Below, in pieces: positions 23,152 to 32,003 of a DNA stretch of 64,000 bases (the stretch's first letter is position 1; the number at the start of each line of letters is the position of its first letter). The DNA lies in the NCBI GenBank assembly GCA_017431005.1, contig JAFRLY010000024.1:1-64000 (forward strand). Direction: 5' to 3'. A program made the position numbers and the translations under genes. The notes beneath the pieces are model-generated. The model was not told the DNA's origin and made no database searches. It saw only the letters and a program-made list of their open reading frames with translations. The DNA is from Clostridia bacterium (lineage in GTDB: Bacteria; Bacillota; Clostridia; Christensenellales; Aristaeellaceae).

Positions 23152-23160
23152 TGCTATAAT
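23152..23160 (+). promoter_or_regulatory. Extended -10 promoter of the GTPase-nuclease gene
   Basis: TGCTATAAT is an extended -10 element; the -35 position (TTCTTT) is weak, as allowed for extended -10 promoters. Transcription would start about 35 bases before the ATG at 23202. Confidence 0.6.
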
Positions 23161-23201: not shown

Positions 23202-25853
23202 ATGAGGATCGGAGCGGTCGTCGGACTGGCGGCTCACGTGGACGCGGGAAAAACCACCCTGTCCGAATCCATGCTGTATCTTTCCGGCGCGGTCCGGCGG
23301 CAGGGCCGTGTGGACCATGGGGATACCTTTCTGGACACGGAAGTTATGGAGAAGGAGCGGGGCATCACGATTTTTTCCAAGGAAGCCCGGCTCACCTGGA
23401 AAAAAACAGAGCTGACCCTGGTGGATACGCCCGGTCATACGGACTTTTCCGGGGAAACGGAGCGGGCGCTCAGCATTCTGGACCTGGCCGTGCTGGTCAT
23501 CAGCGCGCCGGAGGGGGTGCAGTCCCATACCCGCACCCTGTGGCGCCTGCTGGAGCAGTACCGCGTGCCTGTGGTGCTCTTTGTCAATAAAATGGACCGG
23601 TTCGACGGCTCCCGGGAGGATCTGATGTCCCGTCTGCGCAGCCAGCTGTCGGATCTGGCTGTGGACTTTTCGTCGGATCCCTCCGAGCAGATTGCCCTGT
23701 GTGATGAAACCTGCCTGGATGCCTATCTCCGGGAGGGCACGGTGCCGGAGCGGCTGATGCGGCCCTGTTTCCGGCGGCGCGGGCTTTTCCCCTGCTTCTT
23801 CGGCTCCGCCCTGCGGAATGAAGGCGTGGAACCCCTGCTGGATTTTCTGTCCGGCGAGGAACCGGAAGGCAGCAGCGAGGCAGCCTTCGGCGCCCGGGTT
23901 TACAAGGTCGGGCGGGATCCCCAGGGGGCCCGGCTCGCCTTCCTGAAGATCACCGGGGGCATGCTGAAAGCCCGGGATCTGATTTCCCGGACGGACTCCG
24001 GCGGAGAAACCCTCTGGGCCGAAAAGGCGGCGGAGCTGCGGATGTACTCCGGCGCGCGGTATGCCGCTGTTCCTCAGGCGGAAGCGGGTCAGCTGGTCTG
24101 TGTGGTGGGGCTCAGCAAGGCCCTGCCCGGGGACGGGCTGGGCAGTGCGGAAGAAGCCCGCGGGCAGAAGCTGACGCCCTGCTATGCCTGCCTCCTGGTG
24201 TTTCCCGCCGGAACGGATCTGCATTATGCGCTGAACTGCCTGCGGGCTCTGGAGGAAGAGGAGCCCCTGATGCAGGTGGAATACGTGGAGGCCCGGCGGG
24301 AAATCCGGGTGCACTCCATGGGGGACGTTTATCTGGAAATCCTGCAGCGGCAGCTGCGGGACCGGTTCGGGCTGGAGGTATCCTTCGCAGACAGCGGCGT
24401 GCTGTACCGGGAAACCATCGCGGACGAGGTGGAGGGCATGGGCCATTACGAGCCCCTGCGACACTACGCGGAGGTGCACCTGCTGCTGACGCCCCTGCCC
24501 GCCGGCAGCGGTGTGCAGGTGGCTTCCGCCGTCCCGACGGATGACCTGGCGCTGAACTGGCAGCGCCTGATCCTGACCCATCTGACAGAGGTGGTGCACA
24601 CCGGCGTGCTGACAAACAGCCCGATCACCGATCTGCGGATCACCCTGGTCAACGGCCGGGCTCATCTCAAGCATACCGAGGGCGGCGATTTCCGCCAGGC
24701 CACATACCGGGCTCTGCGTCAGGGGCTCATGAAAGCGAAAAGCGTGCTCCTGGAGCCTTTTGTCAGCCTGGAAGTCACCGTCCCGGCGGAAAATGTCGGC
24801 CGGGTGATGAGTGATATCAGCCTGATGGGCGGTCAGCCGGAAGGACCCGAGGATCTGGAGGACGGCCTGAAGCGTCTGACGGCTTCTGTCCCCGCCCGGG
24901 TCTGCGCCTCCTACGGCCGGGAGGTCGGGGTGTATACCCGGGGCCGCGGCAGTGTGCAGATCACCTTTGAGGCTTACCGGCCCTGCAGGAATCAGGAAGA
25001 TATTGTGCGGGAAAAGGGATATGACCCGGAGCGGGATGTGCTTCATCCTGCGGATTCCGTGTTTTGCTCCCACGGTGCCGGTGTGACGGTAGCCTGGTAT
25101 CAGGCGGATGCCTGGATGCATCTGCCCTCCTGGCAGGAGCTGCGGGACCGGCGCCGGGCGGAAGCCGCGAATGTTTCCGCTGTGAGCCGCACCGCCTCCT
25201 CCTATCACGGAACCCGGGAGGAGGATGAGGCCCTGGCCAGAATCTTTGAGCGGACCTACGGTCCCGGCAAGGCCCGCAGCCTGATGCGGCCCGCGCCGTC
25301 TGAACATTCCGCAGGCATACCGGAAAAGCCAGCTCCCCCGCCTCCTGACCAGCGGGAAATTCTGCTGGTGGACGGCTATAACGTGCTCTTTGCCTGGGAG
25401 GAATGGAAAGATCTGGTAACGGACAGCATAGATGCCGCCCGGAGCCAGCTGACGGACCTGATGTGCGACTACGCCGGCATGACCGGCCGGGACGTGATTC
25501 TGGTTTTTGACGCCTATAAGGTCAAAGGCAATCCCGGTACGGCGGAGCGTTATAAAAATATCTATATTGTTTACACGAAGGAAGCCCAGACAGCGGACGC
25601 CTTCATTGAAAAAACCACCCTGATGGCCCGGCGGGACGCGCGGGTCAGGGTGGTGACATCGGACAGGCCGGAGCAGCTGATCGCCCTCGGCAACGCCGCA
25701 ATGCGGACCTCCGCCCGGGAGTTCCGGCAGGAGGTTATTCAGGTACAGGGCAGCATTGCGGACTTTATCGCCCGGCACAACCGGCCCGGCAGCGAAAAAG
25801 CCCTCGAACGAGCCTACAAGGAGGCCTGGAAAGAGCAGCACAGGGATTCCTGA
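23202..25853 (+). CDS. TetM-like translational GTPase fused to a YacP/Rae1-like NYN nuclease
   Basis: The 883-residue protein is a fusion. Residues 1-240 are an EF-G/TetM-type G domain: AHVDAGKTT (G1), KERGITI (G2), DTPGHTDF (G3), NKMDR (G4). The middle follows the ribosomal-protection family up to about 640. After a linker, residues 719-883 form a NYN/PIN-like nuclease domain with acidic residues in place: VDGYN (Asp724), VFDAYK (Asp770), TADAF (Asp799), TSDRPEQ (Asp821). This matches YacP of Bacillus, renamed Rae1, an endoribonuclease that enters the ribosomal A site and cuts mRNA. I infer GTP-dependent mRNA cleavage or rescue on ribosomes. Tetracycline protection is not implied. It ends 4 bases before the convergent traX-like gene. 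Confidence 0.9.
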   Translation: MRIGAVVGLAAHVDAGKTTLSESMLYLSGAVRRQGRVDHGDTFLDTEVMEKERGITIFSKEARLTWKKTELTLVDTPGHTDFSGETERALSILDLAVLVISAPEGVQSHTRTLWRLLEQYRVPVVLFVNKMDRFDGSREDLMSRLRSQLSDLAVDFSSDPSEQIALCDETCLDAYLREGTVPERLMRPCFRRRGLFPCFFGSALRNEGVEPLLDFLSGEEPEGSSEAAFGARVYKVGRDPQGARLAFLKITGGMLKARDLISRTDSGGETLWAEKAAELRMYSGARYAAVPQAEAGQLVCVVGLSKALPGDGLGSAEEARGQKLTPCYACLLVFPAGTDLHYALNCLRALEEEEPLMQVEYVEARREIRVHSMGDVYLEILQRQLRDRFGLEVSFADSGVLYRETIADEVEGMGHYEPLRHYAEVHLLLTPLPAGSGVQVASAVPTDDLALNWQRLILTHLTEVVHTGVLTNSPITDLRITLVNGRAHLKHTEGGDFRQATYRALRQGLMKAKSVLLEPFVSLEVTVPAENVGRVMSDISLMGGQPEGPEDLEDGLKRLTASVPARVCASYGREVGVYTRGRGSVQITFEAYRPCRNQEDIVREKGYDPERDVLHPADSVFCSHGAGVTVAWYQADAWMHLPSWQELRDRRRAEAANVSAVSRTASSYHGTREEDEALARIFERTYGPGKARSLMRPAPSEHSAGIPEKPAPPPPDQREILLVDGYNVLFAWEEWKDLVTDSIDAARSQLTDLMCDYAGMTGRDVILVFDAYKVKGNPGTAERYKNIYIVYTKEAQTADAFIEKTTLMARRDARVRVVTSDRPEQLIALGNAAMRTSAREFRQEVIQVQGSIADFIARHNRPGSEKALERAYKEAWKEQHRDS

Positions 25854-27631: not shown

Positions 27632-29080
27632 TCAGAATGCAGGCCGTTCGCGCATCATACGGGATGCGTCGGATTCAGCGGAAGCGTCCGCTTCCTCCGG
27701 TTCAGCCGGGGCCTCAGGTTCCGCTTCTGCCGTTCCTGCTTCCGGGGCTTCCGCCGCTGTAAAGTCAGGCCGCACACGCATCAGCGTTGCCGGGTCGGTC
27801 GCAGCCGGTGCTTCAGCCGGTTCAGGTTCTGCCGGCGCTTCCGGTTCCGCCTCTTCGGGCTCAGCCGGGGCTTCGGGTTCCGCTTCTGCCGGTTCCGCCG
27901 CTTCCGGGGCTTCCGCCGCTGTAAAGTCGGGCCGTTCGCGCATCAGCGTCATCGGATCAGTTTCCGCCGGTGCTTCCGCCGGTTCGGGTTCAGCCGGAGC
28001 TTCCGCTTCTGCTGCTTCAGGCTCTGCCGGAGCTTCGGGCTTCGTGAAGACCGGCCGTTCGCGCATCAGAGCTGCCGGATCGGTTTCCGCCGGTTCGGGT
28101 TCAGCCGGAGCTTCCGCTTCTGCTGCTTCAGCCGTTTCCGGAGCCTTGATCTCCGTGAAGACGGGCCGTTCACGCATCAGCCTTGCCGGATCGGTTTCCG
28201 CCGGTGCTTCCGCCGGTTCGGGTTCTGCCGGAGCTTCCGCTTCAGCTGCTTCAGCATTTTCCGGAGCCTTGATTTCCGTGAAAACCGGCCGTTCGCGCAT
28301 CAGCCTTGCCGGATCGGTCTCCGCCGGTGCTTCAGCCGGTTCGGGTTCAGCGGGAGTTTCCGCTTCTGCTGTTTCTGCCGTTTCCGGAGCCTTGATCTCC
28401 GTGAAGGCCGGCCGTTCACGCATCAGCCTTGCCGGATCGGCTTCCGCCGGTGCTTCGGCCTCTGTTTCCGCTGTTTCAGCCGTTTCCGGAGCCTTGATCT
28501 CCGTGAAAGCCGGCCGTTCGCGCATCAGCCTTGCCGGATCGGTCTCCGCCGGTGTTTCCGGGTCCGCCTGTTCAGGTTCGGCCTGTTCCGGGGCTTCCGT
28601 CACAGGTTCAGCTTCCGGTGTTTCCGCTTCGGCCTGTGCCGGCTGGGCAGGAGCCGGATCCTCTATGGGTTCCGGTTCCTTCTCGCCGACCGCCTGGGCC
28701 ATAATGTCCTCGATTGCTTCCTTGACGGATTCAGCCGAGTAGGTCAGGGATGCGCTTGTGATGGCGTCAGGAGCGATATCCTGATTCTCCACAACCGCGT
28801 TTGCCCACGCCGTCCGGATATCATCCGTCATCAGATCGCCGGCGCCGGAGGAGCTGATCGTGCAGTCCTTGATCGCCCGGTTTTCAATCGTCATATCCAC
28901 CCGGACCGTGCTGAAGTTGTTCGTCTTCTGCGCGCTGTAGGTGCCGTCCTGCACTCTCGGGTCGATTTTGGGAATCTCATAGACCAGCTCCTTGCCCGCA
29001 AACAGGCCTGAGGCATAGACGGTCAGTCCGATCGCCGCGACCCCCGCCGCGCAGAGCTTGATCCATTGCTGCTTATTCAT
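27632..29080 (-). CDS. Membrane-anchored FMN_bind-like protein with Pro/Glu repeat stalk
   Basis: The 482-residue protein has an N-terminal membrane anchor (residues 8-30). Residues 36-125 resemble an FMN_bind domain (DGTYSAQKTNNFSTVRVDMTI, then VVENQDIAPDAI), but the flavin-attachment site, normally SGAT, reads TSAS, so Ser replaces the flavinylated Thr. The remaining 330 residues are Ala/Pro/Glu-rich and carry eight copies of LMRERP-F, mostly within DPARLMRERPAFTEIKAPE, the last one at the C-terminus. The gene follows the reductase gene by 24 bases. I infer an extracytoplasmic redox or docking protein for the reductase; the motif's function is unknown. Confidence 0.8.
   Translation of the reverse strand: MNKQQWIKLCAAGVAAIGLTVYASGLFAGKELVYEIPKIDPRVQDGTYSAQKTNNFSTVRVDMTIENRAIKDCTISSSGAGDLMTDDIRTAWANAVVENQDIAPDAITSASLTYSAESVKEAIEDIMAQAVGEKEPEPIEDPAPAQPAQAEAETPEAEPVTEAPEQAEPEQADPETPAETDPARLMRERPAFTEIKAPETAETAETEAEAPAEADPARLMRERPAFTEIKAPETAETAEAETPAEPEPAEAPAETDPARLMRERPVFTEIKAPENAEAAEAEAPAEPEPAEAPAETDPARLMRERPVFTEIKAPETAEAAEAEAPAEPEPAETDPAALMRERPVFTKPEAPAEPEAAEAEAPAEPEPAEAPAETDPMTLMRERPDFTAAEAPEAAEPAEAEPEAPAEPEEAEPEAPAEPEPAEAPAATDPATLMRVRPDFTAAEAPEAGTAEAEPEAPAEPEEADASAESDASRMMRERPAF
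27650..28560 (-). repeat. Imperfect tandem repeats coding LMRERP motifs
   Basis: Eight copies of a unit of roughly 80-155 bp, each containing the codons for LMRERP-F, lie near 27650, 27775, 27935, 28062, 28170, 28300, 28418 and 28518. Copies differ in spacer length. The plus strand of the array is free of stops, which produces a false antisense frame. Confidence 0.8.
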
Positions 29081-29104: not shown

Positions 29105-31906
29105 TTACTGATTGTCCGCGGTGACCGCCTTGGCAGCGGTCCGGCCGGAAACGAAGATCTCCACGATGGCATTGCCGCCCAGGCGGTTGCCGCCGTGAAT
29201 ACCGCCGGTCACCTCGCCCGCCGCGTACAGGCCGGGGATGATTTCGCCCGCCGCGTTCAGCACATGGCGGTCAGTGTCCACCACGACGCCGCCCATGGTG
29301 TGATGGGTGGAAGGCGCCATGAGACGGATGGTCAGCAGGGCGTTGTCCAGATCATATGTATCCGGCAGATAGTTGCCCTTCTCATCCTTCTGTACGTTAC
29401 CGACGGTGCGGGAAGCGATGGCCTTGCCCACGTCCGGATATTCACCCTGGCCCATGACAGCCGCGTCATAGTCCCGGATGGTTTTAATGACGACTTCCGG
29501 ATCCGCTTCGATGCCCAGCTCCTTGAAGAGCTCCGGCAGCTGTCCGATGGTCCGGCGATAGTAACGGCCTTCATAGTCGCCGTCCGCCAGCTGCATCGGA
29601 GCGGGCATCATCTGCTCGGCGTTGTAGAACTCCAGGAACACGCCCTTGGTGCCGTTGACCTCGATGCCGTTGCGGAACTCAGCCAGGCTCAGCACGTCGC
29701 GCTCGGAGCCTTCATCCACGAACCGGTGGCCGGTGGTGGGGTTGATCCAGCAGGCGTAGTTGCCGCCGCCGAAGGCCAGGTTGCCGTTGTCGACCCAGGA
29801 GATGGGCATCATCTGGGTGAAGCCCAGGCCGGTTGTCGCCGCGCCGACAGCTTCCGCCATGGTGATGCCGTCGCCCTTCAGGGAGGAGCGGTTGGTGGTC
29901 TTGGTGGCCTTGGAGATGTACTCGGTGGACCAGTAGATGTTGTTGTTCAGCACCATGTCCAGGTTCGCGGCATATCCGCCGGTGGCCAGGATAACGCCCT
30001 TGGAGGCCTTCACGGTCACAGGCGTTCCGTCATAGTGCACTGCCTTCACGCCCGTTACGCGGCCGTCTTCGACGATCAGGTCGGTCACGGTGGTACGGAT
30101 CATGATGTTGTTCTTCTCGTTGGCAGTATACAGGGTCTTCATGGGAGCGGCAAAGTAGCTGCCCCAGCGGCCCATTTCGGGAGCGCCGTCGCCGTCCAGG
30201 TCGATATTGGAGCCGACGAACTCGTTTTCACGATACCAGAGCGCGCCTATCAGCGTGGGCTGTGAATCCTCCTTAAAGGAAGCTCCCTGCTCCTCGAGCC
30301 ACTCCTTCAGGCCCTGGCCGTCCCGGATGAACTGGCTGACCAGGTCCACGTCGCCGTAGATCCACTGGCTCTTGTCCGCGCTCTGGCGCAGACCGCCGTA
30401 GTAGGTCTGGAAGATATGCAGGTTCAGGGTGGAGAAGAGGGTCAGCTGGCCCTCGGCCAGTCCTTCGTCCAGCTTGGGCTGCGCCCAGTCGAGATAGGCC
30501 TGGATTTCCTTCTTCAGTTCCTGCAGGATGGGCAGATACTCAGCATGCACGCCGTGCTTGCTCAGCTCGGCCGCGTCGCCCGCCACAAACTCGTTTTCCT
30601 TGTAGAATTCTTCATCAAAGGGCTCTTCAGACCAGTTCAGAATCATCTTCAGCTCGTCGATGCAGCCCTGCACGGACTTGACCTTCGGATAGGTTTCGCC
30701 GGTGAAGGCATAAACGCCGGTCTCCGCGTCCGGATCTGCCGGATCCCAGACCAGATAGGGCATCACAGACTGATACTGACCGCCGGAAACCAGGGTGTTG
30801 CCGCCGACTTCCGCGTTCTTTTCAATGACCAGCACGGTGTGGCCGTCCTGTGCCGCCTGTGCTGCTGCAGCCATGCCGGCGCCGCCCGCGCCGACGACCA
30901 CCACGTCATATTCGAGCTCCACGGGAGCGCCCGCGGGATGCTCCACCTTGGCAGCCTTGAAGGCGTCCAGATCGGAGCAGCCGGCCTGCTCAGCGGTGTC
31001 AAGCACGCAGCTGCGCAGCGCACGGGTGGAGAAGGTCGCGCCGGAAACGCCGTCCACGCCGGCGCCGTTGCAGGCCAGCATGTCCGGAATCATGATATCA
31101 AACGCCACATCGCCCACATGCGCGGTTTCAACGCTGGAGACGATTTCAACATTCTCGATCGCGGAATCGCTGTAAGTCACCTTCACAGTCAGGGGCCCGT
31201 TGTAGCCTTCCGCCGTGGCTGTATATTCGCCGGCTGTAAAGCTCAGCGCCACGTCCTCCGCCGGGGCGGCGCCTTCGCCGCGGGCCGCGGCCAGAGCGGC
31301 TTCAACCGCTTCCTTCACACCGTCACGGGTCATGGTCGCGCCGGCCGCGGCGTCGATGTCGCCGTCCGCGCGGCCGATCAGAGCCGCCGCATAGGCCTCA
31401 AACTGCGGGATGCCGAAGGGCTCCTCACCGGCGCCTTCGATCTCAGCCGCGGTGATTCCTTTTTCGTCCACGGTGATTTTCACGGTTACCGGGGTCGTCT
31501 CGCTGAAGCCCTTTCCGGAGCCTTCATAGGTGCCGGGAATCAGCGCGCCGCTGTTTCCGCCGCCCTGCGCGGCAGCCAGAGCAGTCTCAACCGCTTCCTT
31601 CACGCCGTCACGGGTCATGGTCGCGCCGGCCGCGGCGTCGATGTCGCCGTCCGCGCGGCCGATCAGAGCCGCCGCGTAAGCCTCAAACTGCGGGATACCG
31701 AAGGGTTGCTCACCGGCGCCTTCGATCTCAGCAGCAGTAATCCCGTTCTCATCCACGGTGATTTTGACCGTCACCGGGGTTGTTTCACTGAAGCCTTTTC
31801 CGGAGCCTTCATAGGTTCCGGGAACAAACGTGCCGCCCTCCGCGACACAGACAGCGGAGCCCAGCACAAGGCACAGGCAAAGTAACCATGCGACAATTTT
31901 CCTCAT
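29105..31906 (-). CDS. Secreted flavoprotein reductase: three FMN_bind domains and a fumarate-reductase-type FAD domain
   Basis: The ATG at 31906 follows GAGGAGGAAAG (933 residues). A signal peptide ends near residue 22. Two near-identical FMN_bind domains (24-115 and 119-210) carry GATMT at 94-98 and 189-193; a third, different one (220-310) carries SGATFST at 288-294. The Thr of these motifs is the site where ApbE attaches FMN. From 333 comes a FAD_binding_2 domain (VVVGAGGAG; IEKNAEVGGNTLVSGG; C-terminal GGNAIVEIFVSGR), as in flavocytochrome fumarate and urocanate reductases. It should reduce an unsaturated acid outside the membrane. No ApbE gene lies in the window. Confidence 0.92.
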   Translation of the reverse strand: MRKIVAWLLCLCLVLGSAVCVAEGGTFVPGTYEGSGKGFSETTPVTVKITVDENGITAAEIEGAGEQPFGIPQFEAYAAALIGRADGDIDAAAGATMTRDGVKEAVETALAAAQGGGNSGALIPGTYEGSGKGFSETTPVTVKITVDEKGITAAEIEGAGEEPFGIPQFEAYAAALIGRADGDIDAAAGATMTRDGVKEAVEAALAAARGEGAAPAEDVALSFTAGEYTATAEGYNGPLTVKVTYSDSAIENVEIVSSVETAHVGDVAFDIMIPDMLACNGAGVDGVSGATFSTRALRSCVLDTAEQAGCSDLDAFKAAKVEHPAGAPVELEYDVVVVGAGGAGMAAAAQAAQDGHTVLVIEKNAEVGGNTLVSGGQYQSVMPYLVWDPADPDAETGVYAFTGETYPKVKSVQGCIDELKMILNWSEEPFDEEFYKENEFVAGDAAELSKHGVHAEYLPILQELKKEIQAYLDWAQPKLDEGLAEGQLTLFSTLNLHIFQTYYGGLRQSADKSQWIYGDVDLVSQFIRDGQGLKEWLEEQGASFKEDSQPTLIGALWYRENEFVGSNIDLDGDGAPEMGRWGSYFAAPMKTLYTANEKNNIMIRTTVTDLIVEDGRVTGVKAVHYDGTPVTVKASKGVILATGGYAANLDMVLNNNIYWSTEYISKATKTTNRSSLKGDGITMAEAVGAATTGLGFTQMMPISWVDNGNLAFGGGNYACWINPTTGHRFVDEGSERDVLSLAEFRNGIEVNGTKGVFLEFYNAEQMMPAPMQLADGDYEGRYYRRTIGQLPELFKELGIEADPEVVIKTIRDYDAAVMGQGEYPDVGKAIASRTVGNVQKDEKGNYLPDTYDLDNALLTIRLMAPSTHHTMGGVVVDTDRHVLNAAGEIIPGLYAAGEVTGGIHGGNRLGGNAIVEIFVSGRTAAKAVTADNQ
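31256..31825 (-). repeat. 285-bp tandem duplication of an FMN_bind domain
   Basis: Codons for residues 28-122 (31825-31541) and 123-217 (31540-31256) are nearly identical, a period of 95 residues. Most differences are silent or conservative. Confidence 0.85.
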
Positions 31907-31974
31907 TTTCTTTCCTCCTCCGGATCTCTGTCTGGGAATATAAGAAAGGAATACCGATAGAATACCTTGGTAAA

Positions 31975-32003
31975 ATAATACCAAAAACAGCCCTCATCGT
32001 CAA
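31975..32003 (-). promoter_or_regulatory. Promoter of the flavin-reductase operon
   Basis: TTGACG (31998-32003), 17 bases, TATTAT (31975-31980) on the minus strand, about 68 bases before the start at 31906. It lies back to back with the promoter of the NusG-II gene. Confidence 0.82.

Follow-up and report, generated by a model that had tools for sequence, protein, structure and literature searches.

How the nuclease Rae1 gains entry to particular ribosomes is, to our knowledge, not settled. The question is raised by a gene in the stretch of clostridial DNA analysed here (64 kb in all, hereafter the window), where an open reading frame at 23202–25853 (+ strand, ATG to TGA) encodes an 883-aa protein that carries an EF-G/Tet-like GTPase and a YacP/Rae1-type NYN nuclease domain on one chain. 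What could such a protein do? Rae1 of Bacillus subtilis is described in PMC6613710 as an endoribonuclease that acts on mRNA in the ribosomal A site, with PMC11780869 and PMC10632193 as further sources.

The original prediction, which saw in this gene a candidate ribosome-directed mRNA cleaver, had named no described example. For the architecture this was wrong, as NYN-fused Tet proteins with a YacP-like NYN have been reported from ten clostridial (Clostridiales) species (Atkinson 2015, PMC4342817). These have the same architecture and very probably belong to the same family, an assignment that follows the paper's description rather than a comparison of its sequences. The accessible text of that report contains neither a test of function nor a link to Rae1, and proposes that the RNase domain adds a new resistance mechanism to a Tet-type protein. 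The architecture has therefore been in print since 2015, while its function is apparently without test: we found no later functional work on the GTPase-NYN fusion in the open-access papers searched. What is new here is the mutual exclusivity with standalone YacP, the distinct GTPase family with its unfused members, the fused clade, the loss of a nuclease tail and the selection acting on the two domains.

Two domains and the gene that encodes them

All features of the gene lie on the + strand. The GTPase half starts with a G domain at residues 7–217 (23220–23852; Pfam GTP_EFTU, 6e-51), followed by a weak EFG_III match (23.3 bits, below the cut-off of 27), an EF-G-like domain IV at 400–513 (24399–24740; EFG_IV) and an EF-G-like C-terminal domain V at 515–598 (24744–24995; EFG_C). 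Motifs G1 (A11–T19), G2 (T56), G3 with H79 and G4 (N129, K130, D132) are invariant in 25/25 aligned fused proteins, and this set of motifs, together with the catalytic His and domains IV and V, places the protein among the predicted translational GTPases of the EF2/Tet superfamily. After an extension at 600–645 (24999–25136; SVFCxHGAG..V.W) and a variable linker of about 70 aa (646–715; 25137–25346) comes the nuclease core (716–850; 25347–25751), followed by a divergent tail (851–883; 25752–25850). Long open reading frames also lie over the gene on the opposite strand, and as such do not count as evidence for genes.

The description of the GTPase as TetM-like held in part. The ribosomal protection model NF012153 is indeed the best NCBIfam match, but the fusion scores 356.6 bits against a cut-off of 775, which a control Tet(M) from a viral contig passes with 872 bits. 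A second fused protein (449.8 bits) and nine relatives (two RPP-like, seven unfused; 369–510 bits) also fall below it. The EF-G model TIGR00484 gives the fusion 258.3 bits against a cut-off of 659.4, and the separate EF-G of the same genome, used as control, 686.5 bits. In alignment the GTPase is 38–52% identical to six unfused family members, and 34–35% to two RPP-like proteins, one of them encoded in the genome of the window. Identity falls to 28% with genuine Tet(M) (27–30% across Tet(M)/Tet(O)/Tet(W)) and to 26% with EF-G. The GTPase shares with Tet(M) the EF-G-like domain order, and with EF-G the domain order and the G motifs. Its domain IV tips, GHYEPLRHYAEVHL and KHTEGGDFR, instead follow the patterns GH[YF]EPL[RK]HYAE and KHT.GGDFR, which are common to aligned fused and unfused members and absent from aligned Tet(M) and EF-G (the second tip reads SPVSTPADFR in the Tet(M) control). 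The 600–645 extension is distributed in the same way. The fusion GTPases and their unfused relatives thus form a family apart, with domain IV tips unlike those of Tet(M) or EF-G.

Two other proteins turned up in this comparison. The genome of the window encodes a second RPP-like GTPase (C27:21406-23259; 642 aa), which has other domain IV tips and reaches 460 bits on the resistance model, where the cut-off is 775. In a genome of the same genus (G428), a 1564-aa open reading frame (L083, 3465-8156, − strand) opens with about 900 residues that match no Pfam family and continues as an unfused GTPase of the present family; it is either a real fusion or the product of a lost stop codon.

The kinship of the nuclease half with Rae1 was borne out. 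Pfam NYN_YacP matches residues 721–878 (4e-43; 147.7 bits, cut-off 24.6), and the solved B. subtilis YacP (Rae1) chains 5MQ8 and 5MQ9 (PDB) are matched at 1.2e-26 and 1.5e-26, a likeness that covers the NYN core over about 130 residues and the catalytic Asp, with D724 of the fusion aligned to D7 of Rae1. The loss of the acidic residues in homologues, which would have spoken against a working nuclease, was not seen: D724, D770, D799 and D821 are invariant in 25/25 and 80/80 fused proteins, the latter set being the window plus 79 of 80 relative loci (L228 gave no ORF). In L149, a divergent fused protein that belongs to neither set, DGYN is changed to DAYN, with the Asp kept.

The gene was also predicted to have its own promoter, and a promoter-like extended -10 element, TGCTATAAT, is found at 23152–23160 (+ strand), the sole TGNTATAAT on the + strand of the window. 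The pattern TGNTATA(A/C)T occurs upstream of the fusion gene in 10/22 regions of the genus, the present one included, whereas single-base shuffles yield a mean of 0.11. Of the 24 loci from which these regions were drawn, L036 offered none and that of L033 was too short. A generic promoter scan did not report the site, presumably as a -35 element is missing. The neighbours of the gene are a BTAD/Trans_reg_C regulator in divergent orientation and a TraX-family gene in convergent orientation, and no conserved operon partner was seen across 114 loci (L228 skipped, fused ORF located in 108), the largest neighbour cluster comprising 11 loci, ABC transporters by eye. Elsewhere in the window, a 482-aa protein (27632–29080, − strand) without a Pfam match has repeated proline/glutamate-rich units around LMRERPxFT, and adjoins a flavoprotein (29105–31984) with three FMN_bind stretches and FAD_binding_2.

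A phage or defence origin of the fusion was rejected: PADLOC returned no match, PHROG a single one, to an elongation factor, and among the best 80 of 141 viral-contig relatives the matched ranges stop at or before residue 641, so that none shows the fusion. Two UNVERIFIED faecal 'Bacteriophage sp.' scaffolds (MT835563.1 and MT835514.1) do carry it, and are perhaps bacterial DNA.

Fused and separate forms across genomes

The search for PF05991 covered 393 class genomes; a completeness of at least 90% was asked, and the genome of the window, at 85%, is among them. Matches were found in 250 genomes, leaving 143 without. The architecture proved widely conserved, with the fusion in 136/393 genomes, as fused ORFs of at least 600 aa in 130 and as broken or contig-edge pieces in six; one of the 130 (G190, locus L144) has a single in-frame TAG near model position 267. 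Another 113 genomes encode standalone YacP (150–230 aa in 112, 342 aa in one), and a last one (G261) has only a 27-aa fragment. Intact fusion and intact standalone YacP occur together in one genome (G284); in G370 the fusion is accompanied by decayed standalone pieces (L142, C56:81209-81444), and second matches in three genomes of family f29 are weak and below cut-off. No other PF05991 match is present in the 85% complete assembly of the window, where a separate yacP had been a point to check. Since 136 genomes are fused, 113 others standalone and one alone has both intact, the fusion is normally the cell's sole Rae1, in line with the usual single copy of Rae1/YacP per genome.

The exclusivity is strong (Fisher p 1.6e-24, kinship ignored). 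Fused forms occur in 27 families and standalone forms in 33; five families hold both kinds, in different genomes. Within the genus, the fusion is present, intact or broken up, in 33/37 genomes including the present one, which argues against a chance joining; the other four, 57–73% complete, comprise three with an unfused GTPase only and one with neither. Among 398 genomes of the phylum, the GTPase profile had 35 matches at 1e-150, of which 28 are fused and seven unfused. The best 80 of 591 named relatives include rumen Clostridia MAGs, Lachnospiraceae, Oscillospiraceae, Ruminococcus flavefaciens FD-1 and Butyrivibrio. The fusion is also found on two plasmid records, from Monoglobus pectinilyticus and Agathobacter rectalis; on an A. 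rectalis plasmid (NZ_CP143948.1) the fused gene is annotated as a TetM/TetW/TetO/TetS family tetracycline resistance protein, likely a misnaming.

The GTPase also occurs by itself. At 1e-150 its profile matched 164 genomes of the class and, once fusions and their pieces were removed, 29 genomes were left with an unfused GTPase. Standalone YacP is present in 23 of these, a co-occurrence with an odds ratio of 5.9 (p 5e-5, kinship ignored), although two of the 23 GTPases (G130, G376) are distant and fall outside the main group in the tree. G440 and G446, of the same order as the window, have GTPase and YacP as separate genes. Both the exclusivity and the co-occurrence are in part phylogenetic. 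Each half can moreover do without the other: no GTPase was found at 1e-100 in any of the seven standalone-YacP genomes checked from families f24, f25 and f29, where Rae1 thus works without it, and in six genomes an unfused GTPase was present with no YacP found, which points to a separate function for the GTPase.

History, selection and loss of the Rae1 tail

The fused GTPases are essentially one clade. In a 51-row tree, 29 fused GTPases form a single group (93/100) with 19 unfused ones outside, and a quick 71-row tree recovers the group (SH-aLRT 100), four of whose rows bear the label 'unfused' (the L146 row of this tree is a wrong ORF and meaningless). Two of the four (L149, L150) are really fused and a third (L144) is the broken fusion, so that L239, a family GTPase without NYN from a viral contig, is the one true exception; NYN can thus be lost, which speaks against a strictly one-way history. 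L239 and L240 lie on IMG/VR contigs from two isolate genomes.

In an NYN tree of 101 rows, the fused domains cluster (SH-aLRT 87) together with six rows labelled standalone, one of which (L144) is again the broken fusion and five of which (L102, L103, L107, L108, L113) are true standalone proteins, four whose genomes (G440, G446, G209, G225) also encode an unfused GTPase and one whose genome (G140) does not. The fused L149 falls outside, on a long branch, as do the standalone genes of f24, f25, f29, f50 and G284. We do not favour a recent fission to explain the nearest standalone domains, since tail-like ends persist in L107, L108, L102 and L103, and since the fused clade does not include the unfused GTPases of G209, G225, G440 and G446. 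The trees fit a history in which two coexisting genes would have fused and been mostly inherited thereafter, with occasional displacement by a standalone gene and at least one NYN loss.

Both domains are under purifying selection and the linker is looser: in five usable pairs, dN/dS was 0.08–0.24 for the GTPase, 0.05–0.11 for NYN and 0.17–0.56 for the linker, values that are rough given that several synonymous distances are near saturation, some above 1. Pairs L040/L041 and L040/L043 were left out, being too alike in NYN.

The fused nuclease differs from standalone Rae1 at its C-terminal end. Standalone Rae1 closes with a conserved LExxRR (FEKWRR in 5MQ8, last residue 166), which the fused proteins largely lack. 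From DGYN to the end, 45/47 rows labelled standalone measure 162–170 aa, the exceptions being 134 aa (L144, the broken fusion) and 260 aa (L143), whereas the 80 fused proteins range from 125 to 185 aa, with fewer than 150 in 32. A loose tail motif proved too weak to serve as sole evidence (fused 35/80 against 20.6 in shuffles; another set 11/54 against 16.4; standalone 46/47 against 20.8), and column counts were therefore used: the L and R tail columns are kept in 96% and 94% of the 47 standalone-labelled rows, against 16% and 3% of 37 fused rows from which same-genus copies had been thinned. Within the final 15 residues, a tail-like pattern is found in 45/47 standalone (6.7 in shuffles) and in 20/80 fused proteins (5.8 in shuffles). 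This remainder counts against a complete loss, and to that extent against delivery by the GTPase; the tail appears largely, not wholly, lost.

PMC6613710 reports R166P in B. subtilis rae1 among loss-of-function suppressors of efp. Placed on the 5MQ8 chain, R166P falls in the LExxRR tail, provided that chain and gene numbering agree. From the decay of the tail in fusions and from R166P we infer a role for the tail in the action of Rae1 on the ribosome, a role that the fused GTPase may have taken over.

A GTPase that may bring Rae1 to the ribosome

We consider it somewhat probable (about 0.6) that the fusion is the cell's Rae1, an endonuclease that would cut mRNA on the ribosome, joined to a dedicated GTPase that docks it. 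The GTP-bound EF-G/Tet-like part would bind at the factor site when a ribosome is slow or has an empty A site, its domain IV occupying the A site; upon GTP hydrolysis the GTPase would withdraw, and NYN, on its tether of about 70 aa, could then enter the vacated A site and cut the mRNA. Binding at the factor site, gating by GTP, the sequence of steps and mRNA as the target are all inferred; since the two domains cannot fill the A site together, the sequence of steps is conjecture. The idea that the GTPase brings its nuclease into the A site, part of the original prediction, gains indirect support from the replacement of standalone Rae1, the loss of its tail and the existence of unfused partners, and the fusion being usually the only Rae1-type enzyme of the many gut Clostridia that have it suggests that the GTPase now brings the nuclease to ribosomes. 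Against this stand the standalone Rae1 of f24, f25 and f29 without the GTPase, the six genomes with an unfused GTPase and no YacP, the five true standalone rows inside the NYN clade, L149 outside it and L239 without NYN. A GTPase-delivered Rae1 nevertheless seems the leading explanation.

A more specific form of this proposal is tentative: the GTPase, working first beside Rae1 and then fused to it, might have taken over docking while the tail decayed, so that it samples A sites and licenses cleavage. Such a GTP-gated mRNA-surveillance nuclease would be, in its logic, a bacterial counterpart of GTPase-delivered no-go decay factors.

It is unlikely, in our view, that the chain merely holds two independent activities, a translational GTPase of the unfused type (for rescue, EF-G2-like or in assembly) and a self-sufficient Rae1, brought together only so that they are co-expressed or locally concentrated, with no gating by GTP. 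That each half also occurs alone and that the linker is long and loosely constrained would suit such an arrangement, but the tail loss in fused forms and the near-exclusive replacement of standalone Rae1 suggest that the nuclease depends on the GTPase half.

Still less probable is the proposal made in PMC4342817, in which a Tet-type ribosomal protection protein gains a new resistance mechanism through its RNase domain. Its best NCBIfam match and the record name of one fused protein agree with it, but the score reaches less than half of a cut-off that true Tet(M) passes, the domain IV tip loops are unlike those of Tet(M), no neighbours are conserved (largest shared cluster 11/114 loci), about one third of the 393 class genomes carry the gene, and its own genome has another RPP-like gene; we therefore disfavour resistance, though it might still apply to other A-site drugs. 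A nuclease for rRNA or tRNA maturation timed by a ribosome-assembly GTPase, in keeping with what was proposed early on for the NYN/YacP domain (cited in PMC4342817), is very improbable, given that B. subtilis Rae1 is described as cutting mRNA in the A site (PMC6613710) and that the fused NYN retains the Rae1 active-site residues.

A GTPase-delivered Rae1 would explain the role of a common group of 'Tet(M)-like' genes. Genes of this family, fused and unfused, are sometimes named as tetracycline resistance genes in records, and resistome counts may be distorted as a result. In about one third of the sampled genomes of the class, Rae1 is tied to a GTPase that probably reads the state of the ribosome, so that a single protein gives direct access to the question of how such a nuclease enters the A site.
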